Of a DNA stretch of 64,000 bases, positions 10,918 through 48,892 are shown piece after piece; the first letter of the stretch is position 1; each line of letters begins with the position of its first letter. The stretch lies in the NCBI GenBank assembly GCA_030280995.1, contig JASXTE010000011.1, positions 1,736,501 to 1,800,500 on the forward strand, written 5' to 3'. The translations under genes were made by a program, and so were the position numbers. This stretch comes from Hemileia vastatrix (Eukaryota; Basidiomycota; Pucciniomycetes; Pucciniales; Zaghouaniaceae). The notes beneath the pieces were generated by a model. The model saw nothing but the letters and a program-made list of their open reading frames with translations. It made no database searches and was not told the DNA's origin.

Positions 10918-10996
10918 TGCGAGCTCTGTTGAGCATGAGACATACTTCCCACACTACTTTCCCTCCCTTCTTACTTTAATTACTTTATAATTTATT

Positions 10997-12880: not shown

Positions 12881-12887
12881 GGTGTTA

Positions 12888-14480: not shown

Positions 14481-14599
14481 AGTTGATGAGTCGTTAACAT
14501 TGATTTGTTGAAAATTTATTTCACATTTGCTGGGTTCTTGTCAGCAAATGAGTTCCCCCGCTGTAGGTAAACGTTGTCCCAACGTGACAAGGTATCTGG

Positions 14600-16556: not shown

Positions 16557-16632
16557 TTTTAAAAAATTTAGAGACACGTGAAAAAGGACATAGTAGTGCA
16601 AAGAATGATAACTACGGAGAATTAAATTATAC

Positions 16633-23960: not shown

Positions 23961-26900
23961 CTAAGATTTTTTCTTTTTGTATTTTTTCAACAGAGCAGGC
24001 AGATTTGAAATTTCCTTGCCAGGTATCCATGCATCATGTTCAGATGATTTGTTCTTATATCTCAATAAATATTCAGTACCTCTTTCAGAAGTGATAATTC
24101 TATCATTGAGAATTTTATCAATTTCTGCTGTTTCTGTGACTTCCTGAGGGTTCTTCTTAGGTCTTCCTCTTCTTTTTGGAAATAAGTCACTGTTGGAAGT
24201 ATAAGGTTTAAGTAAAGAAATGGGAAAAACAGGATGTTTCCTATCATATGGAGAATACAATACAACTTCTACTGCATTATCACCAACCATTCTTTTAACA
24301 ACAAATGGTCCTACAAAAGGATCTTTTAATTTGTGGTTACCTTGTAAATTGAAATGGACAGTAGAGATCAACACTTCATCACCCTTGTTAAATGTGTATT
24401 CTTTATGGGATTTATCCCATCTTTTCTTTTCATATTCAAATGCTTTATCAATACAACTTTGAGCATGTTTTCTGCAGAGCTGTTGCATTTGCATAAAAGA
24501 TTTTACACCAGGGTGCAGTTCCAACTTAGGTAATTTATTATTGAGAATCTGAGCAGGAGTGTTTGGGACATAACCTAACCAGAGCTCAAAAGGCTTTTTC
24601 TCAGTGACAGAATGAACAGTGCTATTATATGCAAATTCAAGACCAGGCAAAAGAGTGACCCAATCATGAGTAAATCTGTCATTGTCTTTATATTCTAAAC
24701 CAAAGGCACAATACCTTCTAATCATATCTTCCAGAGTTTGAATCATTCTTTCAGCTAGACCATCAGTCTGAGGATGGTGAGCTGTAGACAATTTCAACTC
24801 ACAGCCACAAATATCCATTAAAGAGGTCCAAAACTCAGAAGTGAATTTTGGATCCCTATCAGAGATAATGGCTTTTGGAAAACCAATCAAATTAAACATG
24901 TAAGACCACCATAAGAAAGCTAATTCTTTGGTGGATACATCTTTGTGGGTTGGAATAAATTTGCACATTTTTGTGAATCTATCAACTATTACCCAACAAG
25001 AGTTAAAGCTGTCTTTACCTGCAACAGGAAGACCAGTGACAAAATCCATATTAATGATTTGCCAGGGAGCACTAGGTGCTTCAATATGCTGTAATAACCC
25101 TGCTCTCTTACCTGTTAACCTTTTAGATTTTTGGCAGGAATCACAAGATTCAACATATAATTTTGTGTCTTCAGACATATTAGCCCACCATGCAGTGTTT
25201 TTGATTCTAATCAATGTTTTTTCAAGATCAAAATGACCAGCTAATATGTCATCATGACAAAGTTTGAGGATAGTTTCTTTCATTGAAGGAGGAATAACAA
25301 TTACATTGGTAAGCTTCCTTCTATAATATATATAACCATCTTCAATAGAAAACTTTCCTTTATTTAAAGCATTTTGGTACTCTGCAGGAAGAGTTTTTAT
25401 TAATGCTTGAATTGAAGCATTCTTAGGATCATTCAAAATAGTAACTAATTTATTTAAGTTAGAATCTTTATCATATGAATCCAGTATTAACTGTAATAAC
25501 TCTTCTTCCATATCAACTATAAATATACCATGTATATGAACAGTGTCATCCTCAGGTACATAAGCAGGATTGGAGTCATTATTTGGCAGAGGCAATCTGG
25601 AGAGCATATCAACATTAGAGTGAACATTTCCAGCTCTGTGGATAATAGTCATCCTTCCTCTGTATTCCTGAACAGCAAGTTGCCACCTGAACATATGTCT
25701 GTTAGGTGTCTTGAGGTTTAAGAGAGATTTCACAGCACTACAGTCAGTTACCAACTCAAATTTTTGGTCATCCAAGTAGTAATGAAGTTTCTCAAGAGCC
25801 CAAACAACTGCTAAGCACTCCAATTGAGTGGCACCATATTTCAATTCACTATTTCTTAAGGTTCTTGAAATATAACAAATTACAACCTCTGAGGATTTAT
25901 CATTAATAATTTGCCTTTGGTGAAGGGCAGCACCCAGACCAATAAAGCTAGCATCTGTATAAAGTACAAATGGCTTGTTAAAATCTGGAAGAGCCAATAT
26001 AGGGGCTGTCATTAAGCAACTTTTCAATGTATTAAAAGCTTTCTGACAGTCATTATTCCAGAGAAAAGCAACATCTTTTCTGGTTAGTTTTGTAAGAGGC
26101 AAGGCTATGACCTGATAATTTTTAATATATTGTCTATAATAGCCACACATACCCAAAAAACTTTGGATTTCTCTTACAGAAGTTGGTGCTTTCACATTTT
26201 GAATGGCATCAATTTTATTATGGTCTACACAAATTTGTAAGCCTGACACAACATGGCCAAGGACTTTCAAAGATTGAAAACCAAATTTACACTTTTTTAA
26301 AGATAAGGTCATATTGATTTCATCCATTTTTTGGAAAACTCTATTCAAGTGAATCATATGTTCATCAAAAGTTTTAGAAAAAACAATAATATCATCAATA
26401 TAAACCATGAGCCAACCCTCAATAATTTCTTGATGGAAAGTGTTATCCATGACTTTCTGGAAAACTGAAGGAGCATTTTTAGGGCCAAATGGCATCCTAA
26501 CATACTTATATATTCCCATATGAGTAGCAATAAGCAAAAAATTTTGAGAATTTTTCTCAACTGGAACTTGATGATAACCTTTATTACCATCCAGACAACT
26601 AATAAATTTTGCACCTTGCAAGGTAGCATGTATTGAATTAATTCTGGGTAAAGGATAAATATCATCAACAGTATAAGTATTTAAAGCTCTGTAATCTCCA
26701 CATAATCTAGCTTTATCTTTTTCATATGAAATCAAGACTGGGGAGATGACACAATATTTGGGGGTGACATCAACTTTCTCAATGATATTCATTTTCAATA
26801 ATGTTTCAATATTATCTTCAATATCTTTTCTTTTTGATGGAGAAGCAGGATATGGTTTTTTCTTAAGGGAAGGAGGAATATCACTCAAATTACAGGATAA

Positions 26901-29900
26901 GGTAATTTTCATCTCTTCCTGAACAATTCCCAAGACATGAGAACCATGAGCAAAAGCCATAGGGAAAGAGATAATAGAGGCAACAATAGAATCCTTTTGT
27001 TCATTAGTCAAATGATCACCAAAAGAAGCGGTATTTATTTCATGTAATAAATCATCCATTTCAGTTGTTGTTCTACCTTTACATTGGGTCAGTGAGTTAC
27101 AAGATTTCAACAAATGCCCAGAAGGTTTAGGAGAAGAAATTTTGAATTTTCTTTTCCCATTCATTCCTAAGGTAAAGCAATTATTTGCTGGGTCCAGTTT
27201 CACACCAAACATGGTTAAAATATCATTTCCCATAATAAACCAATTGCTCAAATTATCATTTTTCATGACAACAAACTCACAAATAGCTCTGACAAAACCA
27301 CCATTATATTTGAAGAATACAGAGGTTTTGTATTTGCCAATAGGTAATAAGGTAGAACCATACCCTCTCCATTTTTCAGAAGTTATAGGCAATAATTTAC
27401 TCAAATATTCCTTATCCACTGAAGCCAAAGCTTTTTCAGATACTACACTTCCTCCAGCACCAGAATCAAGAACTACATCAACATTTTTACCATTAATGAT
27501 AACAGGTGCCTTTAAAGGGGATATGGGAATAGAATTGTTAGTAATATCTTTAATTATCTCAGCATTTTCTACTGAAGATAAATTCAATACACAATCTTCA
27601 GATATATTATTTAAATAATGGACATCATGTTCCAACATTAAAACATCTTTAACAGATTCATTGTCATAGGAGATATTACTTTCACAGTCACTGGAAGAAT
27701 TATTGACATCAAGTTCAACTTCATCAGCGTCTTCATTTTGTTCAACAAGATGAATTTTCTTGTCACAAACATGACCCTTCTGCCACGGTTTGTTACATTT
27801 ATAACAAGTATTTGTTGCATATTTTTTAGGTGCAACTGGGGCAGAGGGTTTACCAGATTTTTCTGGGAGTTTTATAGAAGGTTTATTCTGATCATTATAA
27901 GATTTACTAAGGTAATTCTTTGGTTCATATCTATGGTTGAGTAGTACTTCATTACAGATGTTAATGAAAGAAGAATTTTCCCTTACATGCTCAGTTCTAG
28001 CAACAATCAAATCCCTAAGAGAATTTGGTAATTTATACAAGATTTTATCTCTCCAAATATCATAATCCATCTTTGGATCAATTGCTCTAAGGATTTTAGC
28101 TATTTTCATCAGAAAAACAATGGGCTTTTCAACAGAGGAGGATACATATCTAGTATTCTCATACAGTCTTTGCTGAGCTAACCTGAATTTTGAACCACCA
28201 AACTGATTCTCAATCAAGGATTTCCAATCATTCCATGTATAATGATTGTTATCTAAGAGGACAGATTCATACCACATCAAGGCTACATTGGAAAATAAAG
28301 AAATTAGCTTAGAAACAATTTCCTCATCAGGTAGTTTATAAGATCTCTTTAAATTATCAATTCTTTGGATAAAGTGTTGCCAATCAGAGGAAGAATCACC
28401 ATCAAAGGTAGGATATTGGTCTAACTTAGGCCAATTTTTCTGACTACTGGGATGGTCCACTTTTTGGTTTGAATTATTCATTAGTAATAATTCCTGAAGT
28501 TTAGCCAGGTGTTCAGAAATTTCATTATTTACAGAAAAAGCTGGTGCATGACCATCACAAGATTTTTTGCTAGTAGCAAAAGATTTTATAGACTCATTGT
28601 CAGTTTGTTTAATGGTTGAAATATGAGGAAGAAAGGATGAACTTTGTTCAGGTTTTTTCCCTTTATTTTTATGCAGCTTATTTGCAGAAATCTCATTTAA
28701 TTCATTATTGATGGTTAAGGTTGAGAACTTTTCCTGTAGGTCAGACACATAGTTTCTTATTCTTGGAATTTCAGACATCTGGTCATTTACTTTTGCAAGA
28801 GATAGAACATTTCTGTCCTCAGAAACTGAGTGCTTGGTACTTAGTGCATGGAAGTCATTTTTTAGCTTCTTCAACTCATTTTGTAGAGATTTTATTTCAT
28901 TTTTGAATGAATAATTTTCCTCAATAAGGGGTTTCAATTCACTCAATGTCTTATGTAAACTGATATTTCTATCTGAGATAGCTCTATGGTCACTTCTTAT
29001 TTGTTTTTGTTGACTAAGAACAATATTCAAGGTTTCTTTGATTTTTAAATAAGCTGTATCTTGTACAGAAGAACTCACTTTACATTGCAAGTGTAAATTA
29101 TTTAATCTATCATTTTCATGGATTAACACATCTCTCACATGTTTGTCTTTCACAATATTAAAATCAAGGGTATCTTTCAATATTTCCTCAGAAGTTTTTT
29201 CAATTAAGGTATAGATTTCAGGGGGAACAGAATCATTTTTAATTGCAAGAGAAGGATTAATTAAAGATGTAGAAGTTAAATGTAAAGGTTCATCAAATGA
29301 CAATTTGCTAATTACATCAATAGGGCTACTAGTTACAGGAAGCTGTCTTTTAACAGGTTTAACTGTTCTTTCACCATGTTCAATAATATTACCTGCAGAA
29401 GAAGATTTATTAGAAAACATACCCAAGTGACTATCAACCAAATTACTTACCATGGCAGAGGAGGAAACTTCCCCTGGGATTGGGTTTGGGATTGTGCTTG
29501 GGCCTTCTTTCTCCTGCTTTGTTGGTAGGGATGAGGAGGTGGATGGAAATTGGGTGTTCTGGATGGGCCAGGCTGATGATGAGGAGGGTGTTGCACATTC
29601 TGTTGGTAGTGACTCATTAGATAATCCCATTTCCATTGCTCTACTTCCATAGTATTTGGATTTTGGATGGTTGAGCTGGGTGGCTGTGAAGGTTGAGCCT
29701 GAAATTGAAGCTGATTGGGAGGCAATTGAGGAGGGGCCTGGGCCTGAATCTGGTTCCTGAGTTCTTGGACCTGATCCCACAATGTGTCTACCTTTGCTTT
29801 GTACGTCATATTTTCTGTCTTCAACTCTTTTATATGACTGGATAGGTTGCTGATTTGTTGTGGCAGAGGAAGCTTTTTTATTTTGAAGCCTTTTGGAAGA

Positions 29901-30128
29901 CCTTCTTGAGGCACTAGAGGCTTTACTTCCTTCTGTGGTACTGGGGGAAGGGGGTTTGGTTTGTTTGCATTTCCTGTCATTTCCACATCCTGCAGTATGT
30001 GAATTCTTTGTGTTAGCATAAGATTTTTTATGACCAACTTTAGAAGAACTTACAGTGTCAGCATCATAGTCAATTTCTATCTCATCCACTTGCATGTTAT
30101 CCATTTTTTCTGCCAAATTGTTGGACAT
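23961..30128 (-). CDS. Element C Gag-Pol polyprotein (unspliced frame)
   Basis: 2,055 codons from ATG 30128 without a stop. In order, with approximate residues: low-complexity Ser/Thr/Pro/Lys-rich N-terminus (1-245), coiled-coil region (300-500), Gag core (565-740, WPKLDQYPTFDGDSSSDW), zinc knuckle (775, CYKC...GHVC), aspartic protease (885, LDSGAGGS), RT (1090-1270, YIDDIIVFSK at 1243), RNase H (1387, LYTDASFIG), integrase (HHCC zinc region ~1622-1660; core MDFVTGLP, SDRDPKF, LAERM at ~1692-1791), chromodomain (~2001-2050). All catalytic residues I can recognise are present. The chromodomain presumably targets integration to marked chromatin, as in chromoviruses. The first ~245 codons overlap a second, probably spliced ORF in another frame, so the true N-terminus of Gag is uncertain. 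Confidence 0.95.
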   Translation of the reverse strand: MSNNLAEKMDNMQVDEIEIDYDADTVSSSKVGHKKSYANTKNSHTAGCGNDRKCKQTKPPSPSTTEGSKASSASRRSSKRLQNKKASSATTNQQPIQSYKRVEDRKYDVQSKGRHIVGSGPRTQEPDSGPGPSSIASQSASISGSTFTATQLNHPKSKYYGSRAMEMGLSNESLPTECATPSSSSAWPIQNTQFPSTSSSLPTKQEKEGPSTIPNPIPGEVSSSAMVSNLVDSHLGMFSNKSSSAGNIIEHGERTVKPVKRQLPVTSSPIDVISKLSFDEPLHLTSTSLINPSLAIKNDSVPPEIYTLIEKTSEEILKDTLDFNIVKDKHVRDVLIHENDRLNNLHLQCKVSSSVQDTAYLKIKETLNIVLSQQKQIRSDHRAISDRNISLHKTLSELKPLIEENYSFKNEIKSLQNELKKLKNDFHALSTKHSVSEDRNVLSLAKVNDQMSEIPRIRNYVSDLQEKFSTLTINNELNEISANKLHKNKGKKPEQSSSFLPHISTIKQTDNESIKSFATSKKSCDGHAPAFSVNNEISEHLAKLQELLLMNNSNQKVDHPSSQKNWPKLDQYPTFDGDSSSDWQHFIQRIDNLKRSYKLPDEEIVSKLISLFSNVALMWYESVLLDNNHYTWNDWKSLIENQFGGSKFRLAQQRLYENTRYVSSSVEKPIVFLMKIAKILRAIDPKMDYDIWRDKILYKLPNSLRDLIVARTEHVRENSSFINICNEVLLNHRYEPKNYLSKSYNDQNKPSIKLPEKSGKPSAPVAPKKYATNTCYKCNKPWQKGHVCDKKIHLVEQNEDADEVELDVNNSSSDCESNISYDNESVKDVLMLEHDVHYLNNISEDCVLNLSSVENAEIIKDITNNSIPISPLKAPVIINGKNVDVVLDSGAGGSVVSEKALASVDKEYLSKLLPITSEKWRGYGSTLLPIGKYKTSVFFKYNGGFVRAICEFVVMKNDNLSNWFIMGNDILTMFGVKLDPANNCFTLGMNGKRKFKISSPKPSGHLLKSCNSLTQCKGRTTTEMDDLLHEINTASFGDHLTNEQKDSIVASIISFPMAFAHGSHVLGIVQEEMKITLSCNLSDIPPSLKKKPYPASPSKRKDIEDNIETLLKMNIIEKVDVTPKYCVISPVLISYEKDKARLCGDYRALNTYTVDDIYPLPRINSIHATLQGAKFISCLDGNKGYHQVPVEKNSQNFLLIATHMGIYKYVRMPFGPKNAPSVFQKVMDNTFHQEIIEGWLMVYIDDIIVFSKTFDEHMIHLNRVFQKMDEINMTLSLKKCKFGFQSLKVLGHVVSGLQICVDHNKIDAIQNVKAPTSVREIQSFLGMCGYYRQYIKNYQVIALPLTKLTRKDVAFLWNNDCQKAFNTLKSCLMTAPILALPDFNKPFVLYTDASFIGLGAALHQRQIINDKSSEVVICYISRTLRNSELKYGATQLECLAVVWALEKLHYYLDDQKFELVTDCSAVKSLLNLKTPNRHMFRWQLAVQEYRGRMTIIHRAGNVHSNVDMLSRLPLPNNDSNPAYVPEDDTVHIHGIFIVDMEEELLQLILDSYDKDSNLNKLVTILNDPKNASIQALIKTLPAEYQNALNKGKFSIEDGYIYYRRKLTNVIVIPPSMKETILKLCHDDILAGHFDLEKTLIRIKNTAWWANMSEDTKLYVESCDSCQKSKRLTGKRAGLLQHIEAPSAPWQIINMDFVTGLPVAGKDSFNSCWVIVDRFTKMCKFIPTHKDVSTKELAFLWWSYMFNLIGFPKAIISDRDPKFTSEFWTSLMDICGCELKLSTAHHPQTDGLAERMIQTLEDMIRRYCAFGLEYKDNDRFTHDWVTLLPGLEFAYNSTVHSVTEKKPFELWLGYVPNTPAQILNNKLPKLELHPGVKSFMQMQQLCRKHAQSCIDKAFEYEKKRWDKSHKEYTFNKGDEVLISTVHFNLQGNHKLKDPFVGPFVVKRMVGDNAVEVVLYSPYDRKHPVFPISLLKPYTSNSDLFPKRRGRPKKNPQEVTETAEIDKILNDRIITSERGTEYLLRYKNKSSEHDAWIPGKEISNLPALLKKYKKKKS
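29389..30128 (-). CDS. Element C ORF1 (two introns, overprinted)
   Basis: Model: exon 1 30128-30054 (25 codons, shared with Gag-Pol), intron 1 30053-29990 (64 bp, GTAAGT...CTGCAG), exon 2 29989-29451, intron 2 29450-29393 (58 bp, GTAAGT, branch CTAAT, CTGCAG), G at 29392 then TAA 29391-29389. The product is 205 aa: acidic N-terminus, Pro-rich patch, heptad region (IKELKTENMTYKAKVDTLW), Gln/Pro-rich stretch, a WKWDYLMSHYQQN motif and a PPLPW C-terminus. The element 1 product has the same layout and motif. Function unknown. Confidence 0.68.
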
Positions 30129-31984: not shown

Positions 31985-32782
31985 GAAACATTAATAATAT
32001 ATTTAAATTAGTGTTTTAACTTGTTTAATATTTTGATGACACAATTAGGAATCAAAAAAGCGCCCAATATTATTGTTTACTAACATATGTAAGGTTTTAT
32101 TTAATATATAAATTTAATTAATTAATTTAATTACATTATAAGTTAATTTTATACTAGTAATTATAATATATGTTTATAATTAATTAATTATTAATTTATA
32201 TTTATTAAATACATAAAAATGCGCCATAATTTATAGAATATAAAATTTATTATGCTTAATTTAAATGTATATATAATTTATATAATAATGAAATTAATAT
32301 GATACTTATTTTATAAAAATCCTTATATCATTTCATTATGCAATATAATATCAATTTATATACATAATAAGCATATTTTTACACCCTCTTTTGGTTCCAG
32401 TAAATTGACATAACATTTACTGGGCTCCTGGTATAGCCTGGGTGACAATCTTTTTTATTATATATAAAATCATTATTTTTTTGTTTTGTTATATTGTGGT
32501 GTTAATATCTCCCCTTATATTCTAAATAAAATAAAATCATTAAGGTTTCTTTAAGATTTTTTAATAATCTGATTGTTTGATATTTAAGCAGAGAAAATAA
32601 ACAGAGACTTACTATCAAACATTCTACTACCAGGCTGTTAAATTGTGTAATCCCAAATTTCAGTTCTTATCTTGTTAAATGTCAAACTTGTTTTCCTCCC
32701 TTATTGCCCTTACAACTATAATTTTATTTCTTTTATTTCCTTCTTCTTTCTCCTTTCCTTCTTCTACACAAACTGGCCAATA

Positions 32783-32840
32783 CAAACCCTCTCCAAAACC
32801 CCCTCAATCCCCCCCTACACCCATTTCAAACCCCTCTAAC
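32783..32840. repeat. C-rich target tract between two insertions
   Basis: A CCCTCTCCAAAACCCC-type sequence. It is the middle piece of a C-rich tract split by the outer solo LTR (TSD CAAAC) on the left and by D/E (TSD CTAAC) on the right. Confidence 0.7.
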
Positions 32841-33972
32841 TGTCAGCCAGGCTATTCCAGGAGTCCAGTAAATGATATATAAATTATAAAACCTTAAAAA
32901 GTGGGTAAGACTTGTATTTAATGAATATAACTTAATATTTTATTGCATAATGAAATTATATAAGAATTTTATTATATACAAGTGTTACATTAAATTTATT
33001 GGTTATATATATTTTTATATATACAATTAAATTGAGCATAATATAATATATTCTAAAAATAATGGCGCATTTTTATGTATTTAATAATTATAAATTTATA
33101 TTTAATTAATTAAAAAACATATATTATAATTACAAGTGTAAATTTGATTTATAATATATTTAAATTAATTACTTAAATTTATATATTAAATAATACCTCT
33201 CATATGATACTAAACAATAATTAAGGACGCTTCTTTTGACCCTTAATTGTGTTAGAAAAAACAAATAAATTAATTTGGACTAAATGGAGATTAATTGCTT
33301 GTTTTGTTGCGTCAAATTATTTTTTGTTTCACTTAAAATGTCCTTTAATTAGAATGTACCATCTGTTGGGAATTATATTTCTCATAGTTCCTATGTTTCC
33401 AATCTTGTTTAGTTATTCACTATTGTCACTTACTGATTTGGGAATTAATGGCGGGGAAATTGGATTCTTAATTGGGCTTTTAATTATTTGTTTCATGTTT
33501 TTCTCTATATTGTTATGTTTCATTTACTCTTTTGATATGTTTGTTTTATTCCATTCTAATCATTGTATTTACAAATATAGTAGCGCTTCAGAGGACCCAT
33601 TGCCTATAAAAGGGCCTTGGATAATCCCCTGTAGCCTGATCACTTATTATACACTCAACAAATTAAATACAATTTTTATATTACGTTTATATTCTTTTTA
33701 TTAGTAATAAAATTCTAATTAAAATTCTATATAACAATTTAAAGGTTGCTTTAAGTCTGATAGTAATTATATTGTTTGCCGCGCAGAACCCTTACATTAA
33801 ATAGTATTATTATTAATAAATCCTAAGTTTTTGTCATCTCTTAAAGTTGCTCGCCGTTGTTTTTCCTTTTAAATAAATTAAATATTTTATTATAATTTAT
33901 TTCTTTTATTTTTCCCTTGTCCTCCTCCTTTTCTCCTCTTTTTCCTACCTTCTTCTAGACAACTGATCGACA
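32841..33972 (+). repeat. LTR 1 of D-E (5' LTR of D)
   Basis: 1,132 bp, TGTCAGCCAGGCTATTCC...GACAACTGATCGACA. It has one private difference from the other two LTRs (CTAAAAATAATGG near 33054). Confidence 0.95.
33605..33612 (+). promoter_or_regulatory. TATA box of element D
   Basis: TATAAAAG inside GCCTATAAAAGGGCCTTGG; transcription would start about 30 bp downstream. The upstream GCGCTTCAGAGG motif is shared with diverged LTRs in the window. Confidence 0.65.
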
Positions 33973-34663
33973 ACTGAGGGCCTTTCCAAACGACGACGAC
34001 GATCGAGCCTGGCGACGAACGACAAAACGCACGGACCACCTAGCAAAACGAAACTTTTGCCGCAACTGTGTTTCGAACTTGGGTTCGACATCTTAGGTTT
34101 ATATAATATTAATTTTTATATTATTTTGAAGTGATTTTTCGATCACTATAGTAAGTTCACCTTTGCGCCTCTCACTCATATTACTATATTTTTATTGCAA
34201 TAACAGTGATTGTGGCTTAATTGCTGATTCACTGAGTGTAAGTGTTCAATTTTTAAAAATTTTTTTTTCCTAGTTGACCATTATAGAGTGTTAAATCCTC
34301 TTAGTCCTAGAAGAATTGACATTATTATTAATACAAATTGAATTATTAATTTAATTTTTTTTTATTATTAATTATTGTTAATTTTGGTTGACTTAAAAGT
34401 ACATTGTGCTTAGTCCCAATATATTGCCATATTTAATATTGGTAATTAATTGGTTGAATTAACTTACTTGTTATTCCCAATTTAACCTTGCAATCCATTT
34501 TTTTAAAAAAATTAATTTTTTTAATTATTACTTTATATTGAAAGTTATTTTTCTATAATTTAATTAATTAAAAATTTTTTTTTTATTATTTGGAGCAATT
34601 ATTGACTAACTTTGATTATTTTTTTTATAAAGTACAAAGTAAAATATAAATCTTCCCACTAGT
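33973..34663 (+). other. 5' leader and PBS-like site of element D
   Basis: TGAGGGCCTTTCC (33975-33987) sits where C has TGGGGGCCTTTCC, so the PBS has a G-to-A change at its third base. A CpG-rich segment (about 33987-34090) follows, including a TCGAAC-TTGG-GTTCGA hairpin. A leader intron is conceivable (GTAAGT at 34151 to TTTCCTAG at 34273), but the donor is not conserved in element 1. Confidence 0.6.
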
Positions 34664-35403
34664 ATGTCCAACAATTTGGCAGAAAAAATGGATAACATGC
34701 AAGTGGATGAGATAGAAATTGACTATGATGCTGACACTGTAAGTTCTTCTAAAGTTGGTCATAAAAAATCTTATGCTAACACAAAGAATTCACATACTGC
34801 AGGATGTGGAAATGACAGGAAATGCAAACAAACCAAACCCCCTTCCCCCAGTACCACAGAAGGAAGTAAAGCCTCTAGTGCCTCAAGAAGGTCTTCCAAA
34901 AGGCTTCAAAATAAAAAAGCTTCCTCTGCCACAACAAATCAGAAACCTATCCAGTCATATAAAAGAGTTGAAGACAGAAAATATGACGTACAAAGCAAAG
35001 GTAGACACATTGTGGGATCAGGTCCAAGAACTCAGGAACCAGATTCAGGCCCAAGCCCCTCCTCAATTGCCTCCCAATCAGCTTCAATTTCAGGCTCAAC
35101 CTTCACAGCCACCCAGCTCAACCATCCAAAATCCAAATACTATGGAAGTAGAGCAATGGAAATGGGATTGTCTAATGAGTCACTACCAACAGAATGTGCA
35201 ACACCCGCCTCATCATCAGCCTGGCCCATCCAGAACACCCAATTTCCATCCACTTCCTCATCCCTACCAACAAGGCAGGAGAAAGAAGGCCCAAGTACAA
35301 TCCCAAACCCAGTCTCAGGGGAAGTTTCCTCCTCTGCCATGGTAAGTAATTTGGTTGATAGTCACTTGGGTATGTTTTCTAATAAAACTTCTTCTGCAGG
35401 TAA
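34664..35403 (+). CDS. Element D ORF1 (two introns, overprinted on Gag-Pol)
   Basis: Model: exon 1 34664-34738, intron 1 34739-34802 (64 bp, GTAAGT, branch GCTAACA, CTGCAG), exon 2 34803-35341, intron 2 35342-35399 (58 bp, GTAAGT, branch TCTAATA, CTTCTGCAG), then G and TAA 35401-35403; 205 aa. Both introns are 1 modulo 3. Splicing intron 1 moves translation into the second frame, and splicing intron 2 leaves it one base out of register with Gag-Pol. Exon 2 is open in this frame in C, D, E and element 1. The product combines a likely coiled coil with Pro/Gln-rich segments and ends Pro-Trp. It could be an N-terminal Gag domain (if +1 frameshifting occurs), a separate particle or nucleic-acid-binding protein, or a regulator of splicing. 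No homologue is recognised. Confidence 0.68.
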
Positions 35404-38400
35404 TATTATTGAACATGGTGAAAGAACAGTTAAACCTGTTAAAAGACAGCTTCCTGTAACTAGTAGCCCTATTGATGTAATTAGCAAATTGTCATTTGAT
35501 GAACCTTTACATTTAACTTCTACATCTTTAATTAATCCTTCTCTTGCAATTAAAAATGATTCTGTTCCCCCTGAAATCTATACCTTAATTGAAAAAACTT
35601 CTGAGGAAATATTGAAAGATACCCTTGATTTTAATATTGTGAAAGACAAACATGTGAGAGATGTGTTAATCCATGAAAATGATAGATTAAATAATTTACA
35701 CTTGCAATGTAAAGTGAGTTCTTCTGTACAAGATACAGCTTATTTAAAAATCAAAGAAACCTTGAATATTGTTCTTAGTCAACAAAAACAAATAAGAAGT
35801 GACCATAGAGCTATCTCAGATAGAAATATCAGTCTACATAAGACTTTGAGTGAATTGAAACCCCTTATTGAGGAAAATTATTCATTCAAAAATGAAATAA
35901 AATCTCTGCAAAATGAGTTTAAGAAGCTAAAAAATGATTTCCATGCACTAAGTACCAAGCACTCAGTTTCTGAGGACAGAAATGTTCTATCTCTTGCAAA
36001 AGTAAATGACCAGATGTCTGAAATTCCAAGAATAAGAAACTATGTGTCTGACCTACAGGAAAAGTTCTCAACCTTAACCATCAATAATGAATTAAATGAG
36101 ATTTCTGCAAATAAGCTGCATAAAAATAAAGGGAAAAAACCTGAACAAAGTTCATCCTTTCTTCCTCATATTTCAACCATTAAACAAACTGACAATGAGT
36201 CTGTAAAATCTTTTGCTACTAGCAAAAAATCTTGTGATGGTCATGCACCAGCTGTTTCTGTAAATAATGAAATTTCTGAACACCTGGCTAAACTTCAGGA
36301 ATTATTACTAATGAATAATTCAAACCAAAAAGTGGACCATCCCAGTAGTCAGAAAAATTGGCCTAAGTTAGACCAATATCCTACCTTTGATGGTGATTCT
36401 TCCTCTGATTGGCAACACTTTATCCAAAGAATTGATAATTTAAAGAGATCTTATAAACTACCTGATGAGGAAATTGTTTCTAAGCTAATTTCTTTATTTT
36501 CCAATGTAGCCTTGATGTGGTATGAATCTGTCCTCTTAGATAACAATCATTATACATGGAATGATTGGAAATCCTTGATTGAGAATCAGTTTGGTGGTTC
36601 AAAATTCAGGTTAGCTCAGCAAAGACTGTATGAGAATACTAGATATGTATCCTCCTCTGTTGAAAAGCCCATTGTTTTTCTGATGAAAATAACTAAAATC
36701 CTTAGAGCAATTGATCCAAAGATGGATTATGATATTTGGAGAGATAAAATCTTGTATAAATTACCAAATTCTCTTAGGGATTTGATTGTTGCTAGAACTG
36801 AGCATGTAAGGGAAAATTCTTCTTTCATTAATATCTGTAATGAAGTACTACTCAACCATAGATATGAACCAAAGAATTACCTTAGTAAATCTTATAATGA
36901 TCAAAATAAACCTTCTATAAAACTCCCAGAAAAATCTGGTAAACCCTCTGCCCCAGTTGCACCTAAAAAATATGCAACAAATACTTGTTATAAGTGTAAC
37001 AAACCGTGGCAGAAGGGTCATGTTTGTGACAAGAAAATTCATCTTGTTGAACATAATGAAGACACTGATGAAATTGAACTTGATGTCAATAATTCTTCCA
37101 GTGACTGTGAAAGTAATATCTCCTATGACAATGAATCTGTTAAAGATGTTTTAATGTTGGAACATGATGTCCATTATTTAAATAATATATCTGAAGATTG
37201 TGTATTGAATTTATCTTCAGTAGAAAATGCTGAGATAATTAAAGATATTACTAACAATTCTATTCCTATATCCCCTTTAAAGGCACCTGTTATCATTAAT
37301 GGTAAAAATGTTGATGTAGTTCTTGATTCTGGTGCTGGAGGAAGTGTAGTATCTGAAAAAGCTTTGGCTTCAGTGGATAAGGAATATTTGAGTAAATTAT
37401 TGCCTATAACTTCTGAAAAATGGAGAGGGTATGGTTCTACCTTATTTCCTATTGGCAAATACAAAACCTCTGTATTCTTCAAATATAATGGTGGTTTTGT
37501 CAGAGCTATTTGTGAGTTTGTTGTCATGAAAAATGATAATTTGAGCAATTGGTTTATTATGGGAAATGATATTTTAACCATGTTTGGTGTGAAACTGGAC
37601 CCAGCAAATAATTGCTTTACCTTAGGAATGAATGGGAAAAGAAAATTCAAAATTTCTTCTCCTAAACCTTCTGGGCATTTGTTGAAATCTTGTAACTCAC
37701 TGACCCAATGTAAAGGTAGAACAACAACTGAAATGGATGATTTATTACATGAAATAAATACCGCTTCTTTTGGTGATCATTTAACTAATGAACAAAAGGA
37801 TTCTATTGTTGCCTCTATTACCTCTTTCCCTATGGCTTTTGCTCATGGTTCTCACGTCTTGGGAATTGTTCAGGAAGAAATGAAAATTACCTTATCCTGT
37901 AATTTGAGTGATATTCCTCCTTCCCTTAAGAAAAAACCATATCCTGCTTCTCCATCAAAAAGAAAAGATATTGAAGATAATATTGAAACATTATTGAAAA
38001 TGAATATCATTGAGAAAGTGAATGTCACCCCCAAATATTGTGTCATCTCCCCAGTCTTGATTTCATATGAAAAAGATAAAGCTAGATTATGTGGAGATTA
38101 CAGAGCTTTAAATACTTATACTGTTGATGATATTTATCCTTTACCCAGAATTAATTCAATACATGCTACCTTGCAAGGTGCAAAATTTATTAGTTGTCTG
38201 GATGGTAATAAAGGTTATCATCAAGTTCCAGTTGAGAAAAATTCTCAAAATTTTTTGCTTATTGCTACTCATATGGGAATATATAAGTATGTTAGGATGC
38301 CATTTGGCCCTAAAAATGCTCCTTCAGTTTTCCAGAAAGTCATGGATAACACTTTCCATCAAGAAATTATTGAAGGTTGGCTCATGGTTTATATTGATGA

Positions 38401-40831
38401 TATTATTGTTTTTTCTAAAACTTTTGATGAACATATGATTCACTTGAATAGAGTTTTCCAAAAAATGGATGAAATCAATATGACCTTATCTTTAAAAAAG
38501 TGTAAATTTGGTTTTCAATCTTTGAAAGTCCTTGGTCATGTTGTGTCAGGCTTACAAATTCGTGTAGACCATAATAAAGTTGCTGCCATTCAAAATGTTA
38601 AAGCACCAACTTCTGTAAGAGAAATCCAAAGTTTTTTGGGTATGTGTGGCTATTATAGACAATATATTAAAAATTATCAGGTCATAGCCTTACCTCTTAC
38701 AAAACTAACCAGAAAAGATGTTGCTTTTCTCTGGAATGATGACTGTCAGAAAGCTTTTAATACATTGAAAAATTGCTTAATGACAGCCCCTATATTGGCT
38801 CTCCCAGATTTTAACAAGCCATTTGTACTTTATACAGATGCTAGCTTTATTGGTCTGGGTGCTGCCCTTCACCAAAAGCAAATTATTAATGATAAATCCT
38901 CAGAGGTTGTAATTTGTTATATTTCAAGAACCTTAAGGAATAGTGAATTGAAATATGGTGCCACTCAATTGGAATGCTTAGCAGTTGTTTGGGCTCTTGA
39001 GAAACTTCATTACTACTTGGATGACCAAAAATTTGAGTTGGTAACTGACTGTAGTGCTGTGAAATCTCTCTTAAACCTCAAAACACCTAACAGACATATG
39101 TTCAGGTGGCAACTTGCTGTTCAGGAATACAGAGGAAGGATGACTATTATCCACAGGGCTGGAAATGTTCACTCTAATGTTGATATGCTCTCCAGATTGC
39201 CTCTGCCAAATAATGACTCCAATCCTGCTTATGTACCTGAGGATGACACTGTTCATATACATGGTATATTTATAGTTGATATGGAAGAAGAGTTATTACA
39301 GTTAATACTGGATTCATATGATAAAGATTCTGACTTAAATAAATTAGTTACTATTTTGAATGATCCTAAGAATGCTTCAATTCAAGCATTAATAAAAACT
39401 CTTCCTGCAAAATACCAAAATGCTTTAAATAAAGGAAAGTTTTCTATTGAAGATGGTTATATATATTATAGAAGGAAGCTTACCAATGTAATTGTTATTC
39501 CTCCTTCAATGAAAGAAACTATCCTCAAACTTTGTCATGATGACATATTAGCTGGACATTTTGATCTTGAAAAAACATTGATTAGAATCAAAAACACTGC
39601 ATGGTGGGCTAATATGTCTGAAGACACAAAATTATATGTTGAATCTTGTGATTCCTGCCAAAAATCTAAAAGGTTGACAGGTAAGAGAGCAGGGTTATTA
39701 CAACATATTGAAGCACCTAGTGCTCCCTGGCAAATCATTAATATGGATTTTGTCACTGGTCTTCCTGTTGCAGGTAAAGACAGCTTTAACTCTTGTTGGG
39801 TAATAGTTGATAGATTCACAAAAATGTGCAAATTTATTCCAACCCACAAAGATGTATCCACCAAGGAATTAGCTTTCTTATGGTGGTCTTACATGTTTAA
39901 TATTATTGGTTTTCCAAAAGCCATTATCTCTGATAGGGATCCAAAATTCACTTCTGAGTTTTGGACCTCTTTGATGGATATTTGTGGCTGTGAGTTGAAA
40001 TTGTCTACAGCTCACCATCCTCAGACTGATGGTCTAGCTGAAAGAATGATTCAAACTCTGGAAGATATGATTAGAAGGTATTGTGCCTTTGGTTTAGAAT
40101 ATAAAGACAATGACAGATTTACTCATGATTGGGTCACTCTTTTGCCTGGTCTTGAATTTGCATATAATAGCACTGTTCATTCTGTCACTGAGAAAAAGCC
40201 TTTTGAGCTCTGGTTAGGTTATGTCCCAAACACTCCTGCTCAGATTCTCAATAATAAATTACCTAAGTTGGAACTGCACCCTGGTGTAAAATCTTTTATG
40301 CAAATGCAACAGCTCTGCAGAAAACATGCTCAAAGTTGTATTGATAAAGCATTTGAATATGAAAAGAAAAGATGGGATAAATCCCATAAAGAATACACAT
40401 TTAACAAGGGTGATGAAGTGTTGATCTCTACTGTCCATTTCAATTTACAAGGTAACCACAAATTAAAAGATCCTTTTGTAGGACCATTTGTTGTTAAAAG
40501 AATGGTTGGTGATAATGCAGTAGAAGTTGTATTGTATTCTCCATATGATAGGAAACATCCTGTTTTTCCCATTTCTTTACTTAAACCTTATACTTCCAAC
40601 AGTGACTTATTTCCACAAAGAAGAGGAAGACCTAAGAAGAACCCTCAGGAAGTCACAGAAACAGCAGAAATTGATAAAATTCTCAATGATAGAATTATCA
40701 CTTCTGAAAGAGGTACTGAATATTTATTGAGATATAAGAACAAATCATCTGAACATGATGCATGGATACCTGGCAAAGAAATTTCAAATCTGCCTGCTCT
40801 GTTGAAAAAATACAAAAAGAAAAAATCTTAA
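34664..40831 (+). CDS. Element D Gag-Pol polyprotein (unspliced frame)
   Basis: 2,055 codons, ATG 34664 to TAA. Same domain order and positions as element C, with scattered amino-acid differences. Protease LDSGAGGS, RT YIDDIIVFSK, RNase H LYTDASF, integrase MDF / SDRDPKF / LAER and the chromodomain are intact. All proteins come from one frame with no Gag/Pol frameshift, as in many fungal Ty3 elements that make a single polyprotein. The stop is followed by T-rich sequence and the PPT AGAGTGAGGGAG (40855-40866) directly before the middle LTR. Confidence 0.95.
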   Translation: MSNNLAEKMDNMQVDEIEIDYDADTVSSSKVGHKKSYANTKNSHTAGCGNDRKCKQTKPPSPSTTEGSKASSASRRSSKRLQNKKASSATTNQKPIQSYKRVEDRKYDVQSKGRHIVGSGPRTQEPDSGPSPSSIASQSASISGSTFTATQLNHPKSKYYGSRAMEMGLSNESLPTECATPASSSAWPIQNTQFPSTSSSLPTRQEKEGPSTIPNPVSGEVSSSAMVSNLVDSHLGMFSNKTSSAGNIIEHGERTVKPVKRQLPVTSSPIDVISKLSFDEPLHLTSTSLINPSLAIKNDSVPPEIYTLIEKTSEEILKDTLDFNIVKDKHVRDVLIHENDRLNNLHLQCKVSSSVQDTAYLKIKETLNIVLSQQKQIRSDHRAISDRNISLHKTLSELKPLIEENYSFKNEIKSLQNEFKKLKNDFHALSTKHSVSEDRNVLSLAKVNDQMSEIPRIRNYVSDLQEKFSTLTINNELNEISANKLHKNKGKKPEQSSSFLPHISTIKQTDNESVKSFATSKKSCDGHAPAVSVNNEISEHLAKLQELLLMNNSNQKVDHPSSQKNWPKLDQYPTFDGDSSSDWQHFIQRIDNLKRSYKLPDEEIVSKLISLFSNVALMWYESVLLDNNHYTWNDWKSLIENQFGGSKFRLAQQRLYENTRYVSSSVEKPIVFLMKITKILRAIDPKMDYDIWRDKILYKLPNSLRDLIVARTEHVRENSSFINICNEVLLNHRYEPKNYLSKSYNDQNKPSIKLPEKSGKPSAPVAPKKYATNTCYKCNKPWQKGHVCDKKIHLVEHNEDTDEIELDVNNSSSDCESNISYDNESVKDVLMLEHDVHYLNNISEDCVLNLSSVENAEIIKDITNNSIPISPLKAPVIINGKNVDVVLDSGAGGSVVSEKALASVDKEYLSKLLPITSEKWRGYGSTLFPIGKYKTSVFFKYNGGFVRAICEFVVMKNDNLSNWFIMGNDILTMFGVKLDPANNCFTLGMNGKRKFKISSPKPSGHLLKSCNSLTQCKGRTTTEMDDLLHEINTASFGDHLTNEQKDSIVASITSFPMAFAHGSHVLGIVQEEMKITLSCNLSDIPPSLKKKPYPASPSKRKDIEDNIETLLKMNIIEKVNVTPKYCVISPVLISYEKDKARLCGDYRALNTYTVDDIYPLPRINSIHATLQGAKFISCLDGNKGYHQVPVEKNSQNFLLIATHMGIYKYVRMPFGPKNAPSVFQKVMDNTFHQEIIEGWLMVYIDDIIVFSKTFDEHMIHLNRVFQKMDEINMTLSLKKCKFGFQSLKVLGHVVSGLQIRVDHNKVAAIQNVKAPTSVREIQSFLGMCGYYRQYIKNYQVIALPLTKLTRKDVAFLWNDDCQKAFNTLKNCLMTAPILALPDFNKPFVLYTDASFIGLGAALHQKQIINDKSSEVVICYISRTLRNSELKYGATQLECLAVVWALEKLHYYLDDQKFELVTDCSAVKSLLNLKTPNRHMFRWQLAVQEYRGRMTIIHRAGNVHSNVDMLSRLPLPNNDSNPAYVPEDDTVHIHGIFIVDMEEELLQLILDSYDKDSDLNKLVTILNDPKNASIQALIKTLPAKYQNALNKGKFSIEDGYIYYRRKLTNVIVIPPSMKETILKLCHDDILAGHFDLEKTLIRIKNTAWWANMSEDTKLYVESCDSCQKSKRLTGKRAGLLQHIEAPSAPWQIINMDFVTGLPVAGKDSFNSCWVIVDRFTKMCKFIPTHKDVSTKELAFLWWSYMFNIIGFPKAIISDRDPKFTSEFWTSLMDICGCELKLSTAHHPQTDGLAERMIQTLEDMIRRYCAFGLEYKDNDRFTHDWVTLLPGLEFAYNSTVHSVTEKKPFELWLGYVPNTPAQILNNKLPKLELHPGVKSFMQMQQLCRKHAQSCIDKAFEYEKKRWDKSHKEYTFNKGDEVLISTVHFNLQGNHKLKDPFVGPFVVKRMVGDNAVEVVLYSPYDRKHPVFPISLLKPYTSNSDLFPQRRGRPKKNPQEVTETAEIDKILNDRIITSERGTEYLLRYKNKSSEHDAWIPGKEISNLPALLKKYKKKKS
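34739..34802 (+). other. Putative intron 1 of element D
   Basis: Phase 0, 64 bp, donor GTAAGT, branch CTAAC about 24 bp before the CTGCAG acceptor. Also open in the unspliced Gag-Pol frame. Equivalents: C 30053-29990, E 42765-42828, element 1 8002-7945. Confidence 0.68.
35342..35399 (+). other. Putative intron 2 of element D
   Basis: Phase 2, 58 bp, donor GTAAGT, branch CTAAT, pyrimidine-rich CTTCTGCAG acceptor. The codon across the junction is TGG whether or not the intron is removed, and the next codon is TAA in both cases. Equivalents: C 29450-29393, E 43368-43425, element 1 7489-7432 (also 58 bp). Confidence 0.68.
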
Positions 40832-40866
40832 CATTTTTTTTTATTGTTTTTTTTAGAGTGAGGGAG

Positions 40867-41998
40867 TGTCAGCCAGGCTATTCCAGGAGTCCAGTAAATG
40901 ATATATAAATTATAAAACCTTAAAAAGTGGGTAAGACTTGTATTTAATGAATATAACTTAATATTTTATTGCATAATGAAATTATATAAGAATTTTATTA
41001 TATACAAGTGTTACATTAAATTTATTGGTTATATATATTTTTATATATACAATTAAATTGAGCATAATATAATATATTCTACAAATAATGGCGCATTTTT
41101 ATGTATTTAATAATTATAAATTTATATTTAATTAATTAAAAAACATATATTATAATTACAAGTGTAAATTTGATTTATAATATATTTAAATTAATTACTT
41201 AAATTTATATATTAAATAATACCTCTCATATGATACTAAACAATAATTAAGGACGCTTCTTTTGACCCTTAATTGTGTTAGAAAAAACAAATAAATTAAT
41301 TTGGACTAAATGGAGATTAATTGCTTGTTTTGTTGCGTCAAATTATTTTTTGTTTCACTTAAAATGTCCTTTAATTAGAATGTACCATCTGTTGGGAATT
41401 ATATTTCTCATAGTTCCTATGTTTCCAATCTTGTTTAGTTATTCACTATTGTCACTTACTGATTTGGGAATTAATGGCGGGGAAATTGGATTCTTAATTG
41501 GGCTTTTAATTATTTGTTTCATGTTTTTCTCTATATTGTTATGTTTCATTTACTCTTTTGATATGTTTGTTTTATTCCATTCTAATCATTGTATTTACAA
41601 ATATAGTAGCGCTTCAGAGGACCCATTGCCTATAAAAGGGCCTTGGATAATCCCCTGTAGCCTGATCACTTATTATACACTCAACAAATTAAATACAATT
41701 TTTATATTACGTTTATATTCTTTTTATTAGTAATAAAATTCTAATTAAAATTCTATATAACAATTTAAAGGTTGCTTTAAGTCTGATAGTAATTATATTG
41801 TTTGCCGCGCAGAACCCTTACATTAAATAGTATTATTATTAATAAATCCTAAGTTTTTGTCATCTCTTAAAGTTGCTCGCCGTTGTTTTTCCTTTTAAAT
41901 AAATTAAATATTTTATTATAATTTATTTCTTTTATTTTTCCCTTGTCCTCCTCCTTTTCTCCTCTTTTTCCTACCTTCTTCTAGACAACTGATCGACA
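40867..41998 (+). repeat. Middle LTR shared by D and E
   Basis: 1,132 bp; serves as 3' LTR of D and 5' LTR of E. TATA box at 41631-41638. No TSD-like duplication flanks it: a PPT lies on its left and a PBS-like site on its right. Confidence 0.95.
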
Positions 41999-42689
41999 AC
42001 TGAGGGCCTTTCCAAACGACGACGACGATCGAGCCTGGCGACGAACGACAAAACGCACGGACCACCTAGCAAAACGAAACTTTTGCCGCAACTGTGTTTC
42101 GAACTTGGGTTCGACATCTTAGGTTTATATAATATTAATTTTTATATTATTTTGAAGTGATTTTTCGATCACTATAGTAAGTTCACCTTTGCGCCTCTCA
42201 CTCATATTACTATATTTTTATTGCAATAACAGTGATTGTGGCTTAATTGCTGATTCACTGAGTGTAAGTGTTCAATTTTTAAAAATTTTTTTTTCCTAGT
42301 TGACCATTATAGAGTGTTAAATCCTCTTAGTCCTAGAAGAATTGACATTATTATTAATACAAATTGAATTATTAATTTAATTTTTTTTTATTATTAATTA
42401 TTGTTAATTTTGGTTGACTTAAAAGTACATTGTGCTTAGTCCCAATATATTGCCATATTTAATATTGGTAATTAATTGGTTGAATTAACTTACTTGTTAT
42501 TCCCAATTTAACCTTGCAATCCATTTTTTTAAAAAAATTAATTTTTTTAATTATTACTTTATATTGAAAGTTATTTTTCTATAATTTAATTAATTAAAAA
42601 TTTTTTTTTTATTATTTGGAGCAATTATTGACTAACTTTGATTATTTTTTTTATAAAGTACAAAGTAAAATATAAATCTTCCCACTAGT
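41999..42689 (+). other. 5' leader and PBS-like site of element E
   Basis: Essentially the same as the D leader, with PBS-like TGAGGGCCTTTCC at 42001-42013. Because both units share the altered PBS, the change predates the tandem. Confidence 0.65.
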
Positions 42690-43429
42690 ATGTCCAACAA
42701 TTTGGCAGAAAAAATGGATAACATGCAAGTGGATGAGATAGAAATTGACTATGATGCTGACACTGTAAGTTCTTCTAAAGTTGGTCATAAAAAATCTTAT
42801 GCTAACACAAAGAATTCACATACTGCAGGATGTGGAAATGACAGGAAATGCAAACAAACCAAACCCCCTTCCCCCAGTACCACAGAAGGAAGTAAAGCCT
42901 CTAGTGCCTCAAGAAGGTCTTCCAAAAGGCTTCAAAATAAAAAAGCTTCCTCTGCCACAACAAATCAGCAACCTATCCAGTCATATAAAAGAGTTGAAGA
43001 CAGAAAATATGACGTACAAAGCAAAGGTAGACACATTGTGGGATCAGGTCCAAGAACTCAGGAACCAGATTCAGGCCCAAGCCCCTCCTCAATTGCCTCC
43101 CAATCAGCTTCAATTTCAGGCTCAACCTTCACAGCCACCCAGCTCAACCATCCAAAATCCAAATACTATGGAAGTAGAGCAATGGAAATGGGATTATCTA
43201 ATGAGTCACTACCAACAGAATGTGCAACACCCGCCTCATCATCAGCCTGGCCCATCCAGAACACCCAATTTCCATCCACTTCCTCATCCCTACCAACAAG
43301 GCAGGAGAAAGAAGGCCCAAGTACAATCCCAAACCCAGTCTCAGGGGAAGTTTCCTCCTCTGCCATGGTAAGTAATTTGGTTGATAGTCACTTGGGTATG
43401 TTTTCTAATAAAACTTCTTCTGCAGGTAA
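42690..43429 (+). CDS. Element E ORF1 (two introns, overprinted)
   Basis: Same model as D shifted by 8,026 bp: intron 1 42765-42828, exon 2 42829-43367, intron 2 43368-43425, TAA 43427-43429. D and E differ within exon 2 at single bases (for example Cys/Tyr and Arg/Ser in this frame), and both remain open. Confidence 0.68.
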
Positions 43430-46400
43430 TATTATTGAACATGGTGAAAGAACAGTTAAACCTGTTAAAAGACAGCTTCCTGTAACTAGTAGCCCTATTG
43501 ATGTAATTAGCAAATTGTCATTTGATGAACCTTTACATTTAACTTCTACATCTTTAATTAATCCTTCTCTTGCAATTAAAAATGATTCTGTTCCCCCTGA
43601 AATCTATACCTTAATTGAAAAAACTTCTGAGGAAATATTGAAAGATACCCTTGATTTTAATATTGTGAAAGACAAACATGTGAGAGATGTGTTAATCCAT
43701 GAAAATGATAGATTAAATAATTTACACTTGCAATGTAAAGTGAGTTCTTCTGTACAAGATACAGCTTATTTAAAAATCAAAGAAACCTTGAATATTGTTC
43801 TTAGTCAACAAAAACAAATAAGAAGTGACCATAGAGCTATCTCAGATAGAAATATCAGTCTACATAAGACTTTGAGTGAATTGAAACCCCTTATTGAGGA
43901 AAATTATTCATTCAAAAATGAAATAAAATCTCTGCAAAATGAGTTTAAGAAGCTAAAAAATGATTTCCATGCACTAAGTACCAAGCACTCAGTTTCTGAG
44001 GACAGAAATGTTCTATCTCTTGCAAAAGTAAATGACCAGATGTCTGAAATTCCAAGAATAAGAAACTATGTGTCTGACCTACAGGAAAAGTTCTCAACCT
44101 TAACCATCAATAATGAATTAAATGAGATTTCTGCAAATAAGCTGCATAAAAATAAAGGGAAAAAACCTGAACAAAGTTCATCCTTTCTTCCTCATATTTC
44201 AACCATTAAACAAACTGACAATGAGTCTGTAAAATCTTTTGCTACTAGCAAAAAATCTTGTGATGGTCATGCACCAGCTGTTTCTGTAAATAATGAAATT
44301 TCTGAACACCTGGCTAAACTTCAGGAATTATTACTAATGAATAATTCAAACCAAAAAGTGGACCATCCCAGTAGTCAGAAAAATTGGCCTAAGTTAGACC
44401 AATATCCTACCTTTGATGGTGATTCTTCCTCTGATTGGCAACACTTTATCCAAAGAATTGATAATTTAAAGAGATCTTATAAACTACCTGATGAGGAAAT
44501 TGTTTCTAAGCTAATTTCTTTATTTTCCAATGTAGCCTTGATGTGGTATGAATCTGTCCTCTTAGATAACAATCATTATACATGGAATGATTGGAAATCC
44601 TTGATTGAGAATCAGTTTGGTGGTTCAAAATTCAGGTTAGCTCAGCAAAGACTGTATGAGAATACTAGATATGTATCCTCCTCTGTTGAAAAGCCCATTG
44701 TTTTTCTGATGAAAATAACTAAAATCCTTAGAGCAATTGATCCAAAGATGGATTATGATATTTGGAGAGATAAAATCTTGTATAAATTACCAAATTCTCT
44801 TAGGGATTTGATTGTTGCTAGAACTGAGCATGTAAGGGAAAATTCTTCTTTCATTAATATCTGTAATGAAGTACTACTCAACCATAGATATGAACCAAAG
44901 AATTACCTTAGTAAATCTTATAATGATCAAAATAAACCTTCTATAAAACTCCCAGAAAAATCTGGTAAACCCTCTGCCCCAGTTGCACCTAAAAAATATG
45001 CAACAAATACTTGTTATAAGTGTAACAAACCGTGGCAGAAGGGTCATGTTTGTGACAAGAAAATTCATCTTGTTGAACATAATGAAGACACTGATGAAAT
45101 TGAACTTGATGTCAATAATTCTTCCAGTGACTGTGAAAGTAATATCTCCTATGACAATGAATCTGTTAAAGATGTTTTAATGTTGGAACATGATGTCCAT
45201 TATTTAAATAATATATCTGAAGATTGTGTATTGAATTTATCTTCAGTAGAAAATGCTGAGATAATTAAAGATATTACTAACAATTCTATTCCTATATCCC
45301 CTTTAAAGGCACCTGTTATCATTAATGGTAAAAATGTTGATGTAGTTCTTGATTCTGGTGCTGGAGGAAGTGTAGTATCTGAAAAAGCTTTGGCTTCAGT
45401 GGATAAGGAATATTTGAGTAAATTATTGCCTATAACTTCTGAAAAATGGAGAGGGTATGGTTCTACCTTATTTCCTATTGGCAAATACAAAACCTCTGTA
45501 TTCTTCAAATATAATGGTGGTTTTGTCAGAGCTATTTGTGAGTTTGTTGTCATGAAAAATGATAATTTGAGCAATTGGTTTATTATGGGAAATGATATTT
45601 TAACCATGTTTGGTGTGAAACTGGACCCAGCAAATAATTGCTTTACCTTAGGAATGAATGGGAAAAGAAAATTCAAAATTTCTTCTCCTAAACCTTCTGG
45701 GCATTTGTTGAAATCTTGTAACTCACTGACCCAATGTAAAGGTAGAACAACAACTGAAATGGATGATTTATTACATGAAATAAATACCGCTTCTTTTGGT
45801 GATCATTTAACTAATGAACAAAAGGATTCTATTGTTGCCTCTATTACCTCTTTCCCTATGGCTTTTGCTCATGGTTCTCACGTCTTGGGAATTGTTCAGG
45901 AAGAAATGAAAATTACCTTATCCTGTAATTTGAGTGATATTCCTCCTTCCCTTAAGAAAAAACCATATCCTGCTTCTCCATCAAAAAGAAAAGATATTGA
46001 AGATAATATTGAAACATTATTGAAAATGAATATCATTGAGAAAGTGAATGTCACCCCCAAATATTGTGTCATCTCCCCAGTCTTGATTTCATATGAAAAA
46101 GATAAAGCTAGATTATGTGGAGATTACAGAGCTTTAAATACTTATACTGTTGATGATATTTATCCTTTACCCAGAATTAATTCAATACATGCTACCTTGC
46201 AAGGTGCAAAATTTATTAGTTGTCTGGATGGTAATAAAGGTTATCATCAAGTTCCAGTTGAGAAAAATTCTCAAAATTTTTTGCTTATTGCTACTCATAT
46301 GGGAATATATAAGTATGTTAGGATGCCATTTGGCCCTAAAAATGCTCCTTCAGTTTTCCAGAAAGTCATGGATAACACTTTCCATCAAGAAATTATTGAA

Positions 46401-48857: not shown

Positions 48858-48892
48858 CATTTTTTTTTATTGTTTTTTTTAGAGTGAGGGAG

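Follow-up and report, generated by a model that had tools for sequence, protein, structure and literature searches.

In a window of 64,000 nucleotides (nt) from the basidiomycete Hemileia vastatrix (the whole stretch analysed here; contig JASXTE010000011.1 of assembly GCA_030280995.1, positions 1,736,501 to 1,800,500), host splicing very probably switches a single ATG between two overlapping proteins of a Ty3/gypsy retrotransposon, element D. Judged from the sequence, unspliced RNA would give Gag-Pol, and RNA lacking the first of two short introns would give a second protein, ORF1. An earlier note on this DNA had proposed this use of one ATG, and it is supported here by 36 intron-less genomic copies and by selection in both frames. 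The 5' end of D is laid out as follows:

34664–34738, plus strand: exon 1, with the ATG and 25 codons that Gag-Pol and ORF1 share.
34739–34802, plus strand: predicted intron 1, 64 nt, GTAAGT...GCTAAC...CTGCAG, missing from 17 genomic copies.
34803–35341, plus strand: exon 2, dual coding: one frame specifies ORF1, a second the N-terminal region of Gag-Pol (from position-specific divergence and codon shuffles).
35342–35399, plus strand: predicted intron 2, 58 nt, GTAAGT...CTGCAG, missing from 27 genomic copies (25 pattern matches plus L115 and L116).
35400–35403, plus strand: first bases of exon 3, which finish the Trp codon and supply the TAA stop of spliced ORF1.
34664–40831, plus strand: Gag-Pol frame of D, 2,055 codons, with no stop across either intron.

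When the sequence was re-read, the two introns had the lengths, phases and matching places that the note gave for D, its close relatives C and E, and the diverged element 1. Removal of intron 1 takes the shared ATG out of the Gag-Pol frame and into a second open frame, ORF1, of 205 amino acids (aa) in D and 159 aa in element 1, again as described there. The length of each intron is 1 modulo 3, and losing either or both puts the ATG out of the Gag-Pol frame: D without intron 1 encodes 205 aa, without intron 2 245 aa and without both 205 aa, none of them Gag-Pol. ORF1 ends Pro-Trp-stop at intron 2, about 5.4 kb upstream of the Gag-Pol stop. The stop follows the Trp codon with or without splicing of intron 2, because exon 3 starts with GTAAT. 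Element 1, a relative of D with a broken pol gene, lies on the minus strand between LTRs (long terminal repeats) at 227–1733 and 8614–10119:

8003–8023, minus strand: exon 1 of element 1, 7 codons.
7945–8002, minus strand: predicted intron 1 of element 1, 58 nt; the donor is GTAAGT in 27 of 30 family loci, and a scan for a CTRAY branch motif found none.
7490–7944, minus strand: exon 2 of element 1, with the ORF1 frame intact and one stop in the Gag-Pol frame.
7432–7489, minus strand: predicted intron 2 of element 1, 58 nt, GTGAGT...CTAAC...TATAG.

Because these are retroelements, spliced RNA can return to the genome as DNA. We searched the 748-Mb host assembly for the junctions that splicing would create (up to two mismatches for exon 1–exon 2), with reversed patterns as controls. 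The exon 1–exon 2 junction gave 17 matches (12 exact) and the exon 2–exon 3 junction 25 (19 exact), six of them common to both searches; each reversed control gave 0. Read base by base, all 17 copies with the first junction lack intron 1 entirely, while intron 2 is kept in 9 (57 of its 58 nt in L113) and gone in 8. The other 19 copies, matched at the exon 2–exon 3 junction only, all lack intron 2, and 18 clearly keep intron 1; the 5' part of the remaining one, L133, aligns too poorly for a call. In total, 36 D-type copies have lost one or both introns at the predicted bases, and they represent three splice states. Exact losses of 64 and 58 nt, single and joint, at canonical sites and with no match to the reversed patterns, are what splicing would be expected to leave.

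On the best tree (47 rows, omitting L005, L013 and all intron 2-only copies and including one copy of a third family, G), the state of intron 1 changes at least 10 times and that of intron 2 six times. Apart from L133, the intron 2-only copies carry 8 to 55 differences from D over the roughly 538 bases of exon 2. Two neighbouring pairs, L110/L111 and L115/L116, lie 8,219 and 7,926 bases apart, near the 8,026 that separates D from E; from this spacing we take them to be whole LTR elements, and the members of each pair are non-independent. Among the intron 2-only copies (L117–L135), intron 1 has the ends GTGAGT/ATTCAG in L118, L132, L134 and L135, which suggests a further subfamily.

The second line of evidence comes from comparing D with family G, which was sampled independently of ORF1 through a related LTR from the window (positions 32000–32800 as query, match over about the first 450 bases). 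The ORF1 region is present in seven G copies, namely L063 and 6 of the 36 stretches beside LTR matches; the other 30 have no ORF1 region and were dropped (L094 has just 56 bases of it), and L061 and L062 contain pol pieces. L063 is 77% identical to D across 1.6 kb. The note had suggested looking for the same introns in other members of the clade, and G has them: candidate intron 1 is 55 nt in six of seven copies and 54 nt in the other, intron 2 is 58 nt in six of seven, and in the seventh, L088, intron 2 is exactly gone. The predicted introns thus stand at matching places in three families, those of D, element 1 and G.

A frame-by-frame comparison of exon 2 across copies, which the note had also proposed, shows that at sites invariant in G the third positions of ORF1 are the most divergent from D (54/122, against 25/119 first and 22/130 second positions; p 1e-6). 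Sites varying inside G, a built-in near-neutral control, have no position bias (46/168, 50/169, 39/169; p 0.39). Past intron 2, it is the third positions of Gag-Pol that differ most between D and L063 (64/292, first 34/293, second 26/295). Between D and G, constraint follows the ORF1 frame before intron 2 and the Gag-Pol frame after it.

The Gag-Pol frame is kept open through exon 2. With ORF1 and its codons fixed, codon shuffles give an expected 6.5 stops in the Gag-Pol frame of D and 7.5 in that of element 1, and 0 and 1 are observed. Of 30 loci per family, 22 in the D family are stop-free in this frame over 409 codons, and 18 in the element 1 family over 197 codons. Exon 2 of the G copies holds 12–16 stops per copy in the third frame, 0–5 in ORF1 and 0–5 in Gag-Pol, and no stop in either of the latter frames is common to more than two copies. 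Selection acts on the sequence of ORF1 and on the openness of the Gag-Pol frame. The note had called ORF1 the better-preserved frame; this holds for the amino-acid sequence, but the reason given, a TAA in the Gag-Pol frame of element 1, falls away, as the stop is a minority state found in 2 of 30 family loci and absent from the other 28. Silent sites within families also favour ORF1 constraint, with 26 ORF1-silent against 7 Gag-silent sites in the element 1 family (expected 14.3 and 15.5) and 14 against 7 in the D family (expected 8.5 and 9.8). Because ranking of the copies had been by similarity to ORF1, we do not use these counts as support (L002, which is element E, was omitted, and one count was also made without L005 and L013, which are too different, i.e., on 27 of 30 D-type loci).

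Upstream of the shared ATG the leader is depleted of other start codons, a further point in favour of the switch:

33973–34663, plus strand: 5' leader of D, part of the 1126 nt upstream of the start that are free of ATG (LTR end included).

A TATA-like box lies at about 33605 in D (CCTATAAAAGGG), and such a box precedes the ATG by 1,059 nt in D (and equally in E), by 1,091 nt in C and by 924 nt in element 1. No ATG occurs in 1,126 nt of D (14.2 expected; 0 of 500 dinucleotide shuffles were ATG-free) or in 1,158 nt of C (13.0 expected from shuffles), these stretches having been selected to begin past the last upstream ATG, which precedes the TATA-like box. The 590-nt post-LTR leader of element 1 has one ATG against 10.6 expected. 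That ATG opens an upstream frame of 20 codons (8026–8088, minus strand), which stops 2 nt short of the ORF1/Gag-Pol ATG of the element. A decayed G-family copy has six ATGs in its leader, as an old copy may have. A GTAAGT-bearing block of the leader (34140–34260) is strongly conserved between D and L063 and may serve as a signal for packaging or splicing.

Several observations weigh against splicing as the switch. Splicing is deduced here from genomic DNA copies, of the D type plus L088 of G. The search patterns require exact loss, so the exactness of the 36 copies is by construction and inexact losses are uncounted. Both ends of intron 2 bear GGTAA, and a repeat-mediated deletion could mimic its loss. 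Loss of intron 2 only is the commonest class (19/36) and corresponds to an RNA form that gives neither ORF1 nor Gag-Pol. Well-supported branches of the tree compel just two changes of intron 1. For the element 1 family, the exon 1–exon 2 junction has 0 matches in the assembly at up to two mismatches; in element 1-type loci (ranked by ORF1), eight variable exon 2 sites create Gag-Pol stops against about four expected, and for the Gag-Pol segment right after intron 2, too, no conservation between D and element 1 could be detected. In G, the donor of intron 1 is GTAGGT in all seven copies, and that of intron 2 is GTAAGT in just three of six. As to the protein, the AlphaFold2 model of exon 2 is a single helix plus disorder (mean pLDDT 60), and the Rev- or CERV-like role of ORF1 is argued by analogy.

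What ORF1 might do is the point on which two readings compete. It has a single long helix, a stretch rich in Pro and Gln, the K-W-D motif, a basic tail and the Pro-Trp end. AlphaFold2 models of the exon 2 product (four rows) contain one high-confidence helix of 42 residues (residues 42–83) and a weak helix across the K-W-D motif, with low confidence elsewhere; the last 40 or so residues of ORF1 carry a net charge of +6 in D and +7 in element 1. ORF1 would be translated from spliced RNA, and an oligomerising, basic-tailed protein made in this way would fit a CERV- or Rev-like regulator and a particle-assembly partner about equally well. Under the first of these, which we put forward tentatively, default splicing would yield ORF1 early as an overprinted RNA-binding regulator, which would then protect and export intron-containing genomic RNA so that Gag-Pol is made late; this would be a Rev/CERV-like loop of independent origin, encoded within dual-coding DNA of a retrotransposon from outside the animals. 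Under the second, also possible but doubtful, ORF1 helps capsids to assemble or acts as a nucleic-acid chaperone, in the manner of a second Gag-like subunit, and has no part in RNA export. The high-confidence helix, a Pro/Gln-rich linker and the basic tail would suit an oligomerising RNA binder of this kind; ORF1, however, has no Pfam family above cut-off and none of Gag type, and its exon 2 has no protein homologue at E 0.01 (20 candidates).

It is unlikely that splicing is real and ORF1 a by-product, open through composition, with the spliced RNA serving merely as a brake or decoy for Gag-Pol. The predominance of intron 2-only retrocopies, which yield no ORF1, speaks for this, as do codon shuffles with Gag-Pol codons fixed, 18% of which leave ORF1 open in D and 7% in element 1; the position-specific divergence of exon 2 between D and G speaks for selection on ORF1. 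Less likely still, ORF1 could be reached without splicing, by leaky scanning to an ATG in the ORF1 frame, the fourth codon of exon 2, a Met common to C, D, E and element 1; in D, however, several Gag-Pol-frame ATGs precede that codon, and the retrocopies lose intron 1 exactly where the first ATG joins ORF1. We give least credence to the view that the intron-less copies are DNA deletions and the introns merely intron-like in-frame segments of Gag-Pol: slippage could use the GGTAA repeat of intron 2 and the searches counted exact losses only, yet intron 1, with no comparable repeat at its ends (nothing beyond one base), was lost to the base in 17 variously diverged copies, the losses are both single and joint and end at canonical splice sites, the reversed patterns gave 0, and the intron positions match across three families.

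The mechanism we propose is thus a switch at a single start codon, operated in this chromodomain clade of Ty3/gypsy by host splicing of two short introns. Unspliced genomic RNA would be read from the ATG through both introns and exon 2 as one Gag-Pol; with intron 1 out, the same ATG would enter the other frame and give ORF1. The most likely task of ORF1 would be that of an accessory factor which, in the manner of CERV or Rev, regulates the element's own RNA or partners it in assembly and lets intron-containing genomic RNA leave the nucleus.

Extra proteins arise by host splicing of full-length retroelement RNA in lentiviruses (Rev and Tat), human T-lymphotropic virus (pX), Drosophila copia and gypsy (env); the hosts, positions and proteins of these cases are unrelated to those of ORF1. 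Rev-type proteins are marked by an arginine-rich RNA-binding motif, an export signal and an RNA response element; in ORF1 a basic tail and a helix are noted. The closest precedent is Cer1 of C. elegans. This Ty3/gypsy element (PMC10309623, PMC3315495) has a single stop-free gag-pol frame whose unspliced RNA gives Gag-Pol, and a spliced five-exon RNA gives CERV, with exons 1–3 in the gag frame and exon 4 in another; CERV has a potential leucine zipper and is required to export unspliced genomic RNA. Common to both systems are the shared Gag start and a spliced RNA (here deduced from D-type genomic copies) that moves into a different frame. In layout, our case differs in having two short introns and a protein of 159–205 aa entirely at the 5' end, and an export role that is shown for CERV is putative for ORF1. 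BARE of barley (PMC3735527) is likewise a one-frame LTR retrotransposon with a spliced RNA beside the full-length RNA. The spliced subgenomic RNA of BARE serves for Gag, whereas here it would code for an unrelated overprinted protein and abolish Gag, as the D forms stop before the Gag core (after 205, 245 and 205 aa). The additional ORFs of plant LTR retrotransposons (PMC7264820) are likewise extra proteins beyond Gag-Pol. Among the literature matches listed (titles and abstract openings, with subscription papers mostly outside this scope), there was no non-animal accessory protein made from the Gag-Pol ATG.

The remaining features of the window concern the class and arrangement of the elements:

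32841–33972, plus strand: 5' LTR of D, from self-comparison of the window.
42690–48857, plus strand: element E, D-like layout (intron 1 42765–42828, exon 2 42829–43367, intron 2 43368–43425).
23961–30128, minus strand: element C, D-like layout (intron 1 30053–29990, exon 2 29989–29451, intron 2 29450–29393).
33249–33704, 41275–41730 and 49301–49756, plus strand, and 22898–23482, minus strand: open frames in LTRs.

C, D and E each have one 2,055-codon Gag-Pol frame, and C is 97.5% identical to D. LTR pairs flank the elements in the self-comparison, as expected of Ty3/gypsy, and D has the chromovirus order of Pfam domains RVT_1, RT_RNaseH, Integrase_H2C2 and Chromo, all above cut-off; the integrase core rve scores 28.8 bits, under its cut-off of 32.6. 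Gag-Pol residues 1–800 have no protein homologue at E 0.001 (6,849 candidates), and no relative turned up when viral contigs were scanned with the reverse transcriptase region. D and E form a tandem with common LTRs (LTR-D-LTR-E-LTR, 32841–50024, period 8,026), and across 9,158 bases their identity is 99.9%; on C19, three matches spaced about 8,030 apart resemble a second such array. Four of the five LTRs of C, D and E contain a sense-strand open frame of 151–194 codons whose product seems very hydrophobic. A further degraded Ty3-like element at 10120–17432 is bounded by terminal repeats, some 770 bases long and 97% identical to each other, and contains an integrase-like frame.

The splice forms of the D retrotransposon are legible in the processed copies it has left. 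Exon 2 houses two overlapping genes, and selection on each frame can be measured from family to family. Should ORF1 prove to regulate unspliced RNA, one could test whether retroviral-type control of RNA export arose more than once among LTR retrotransposons outside animals.
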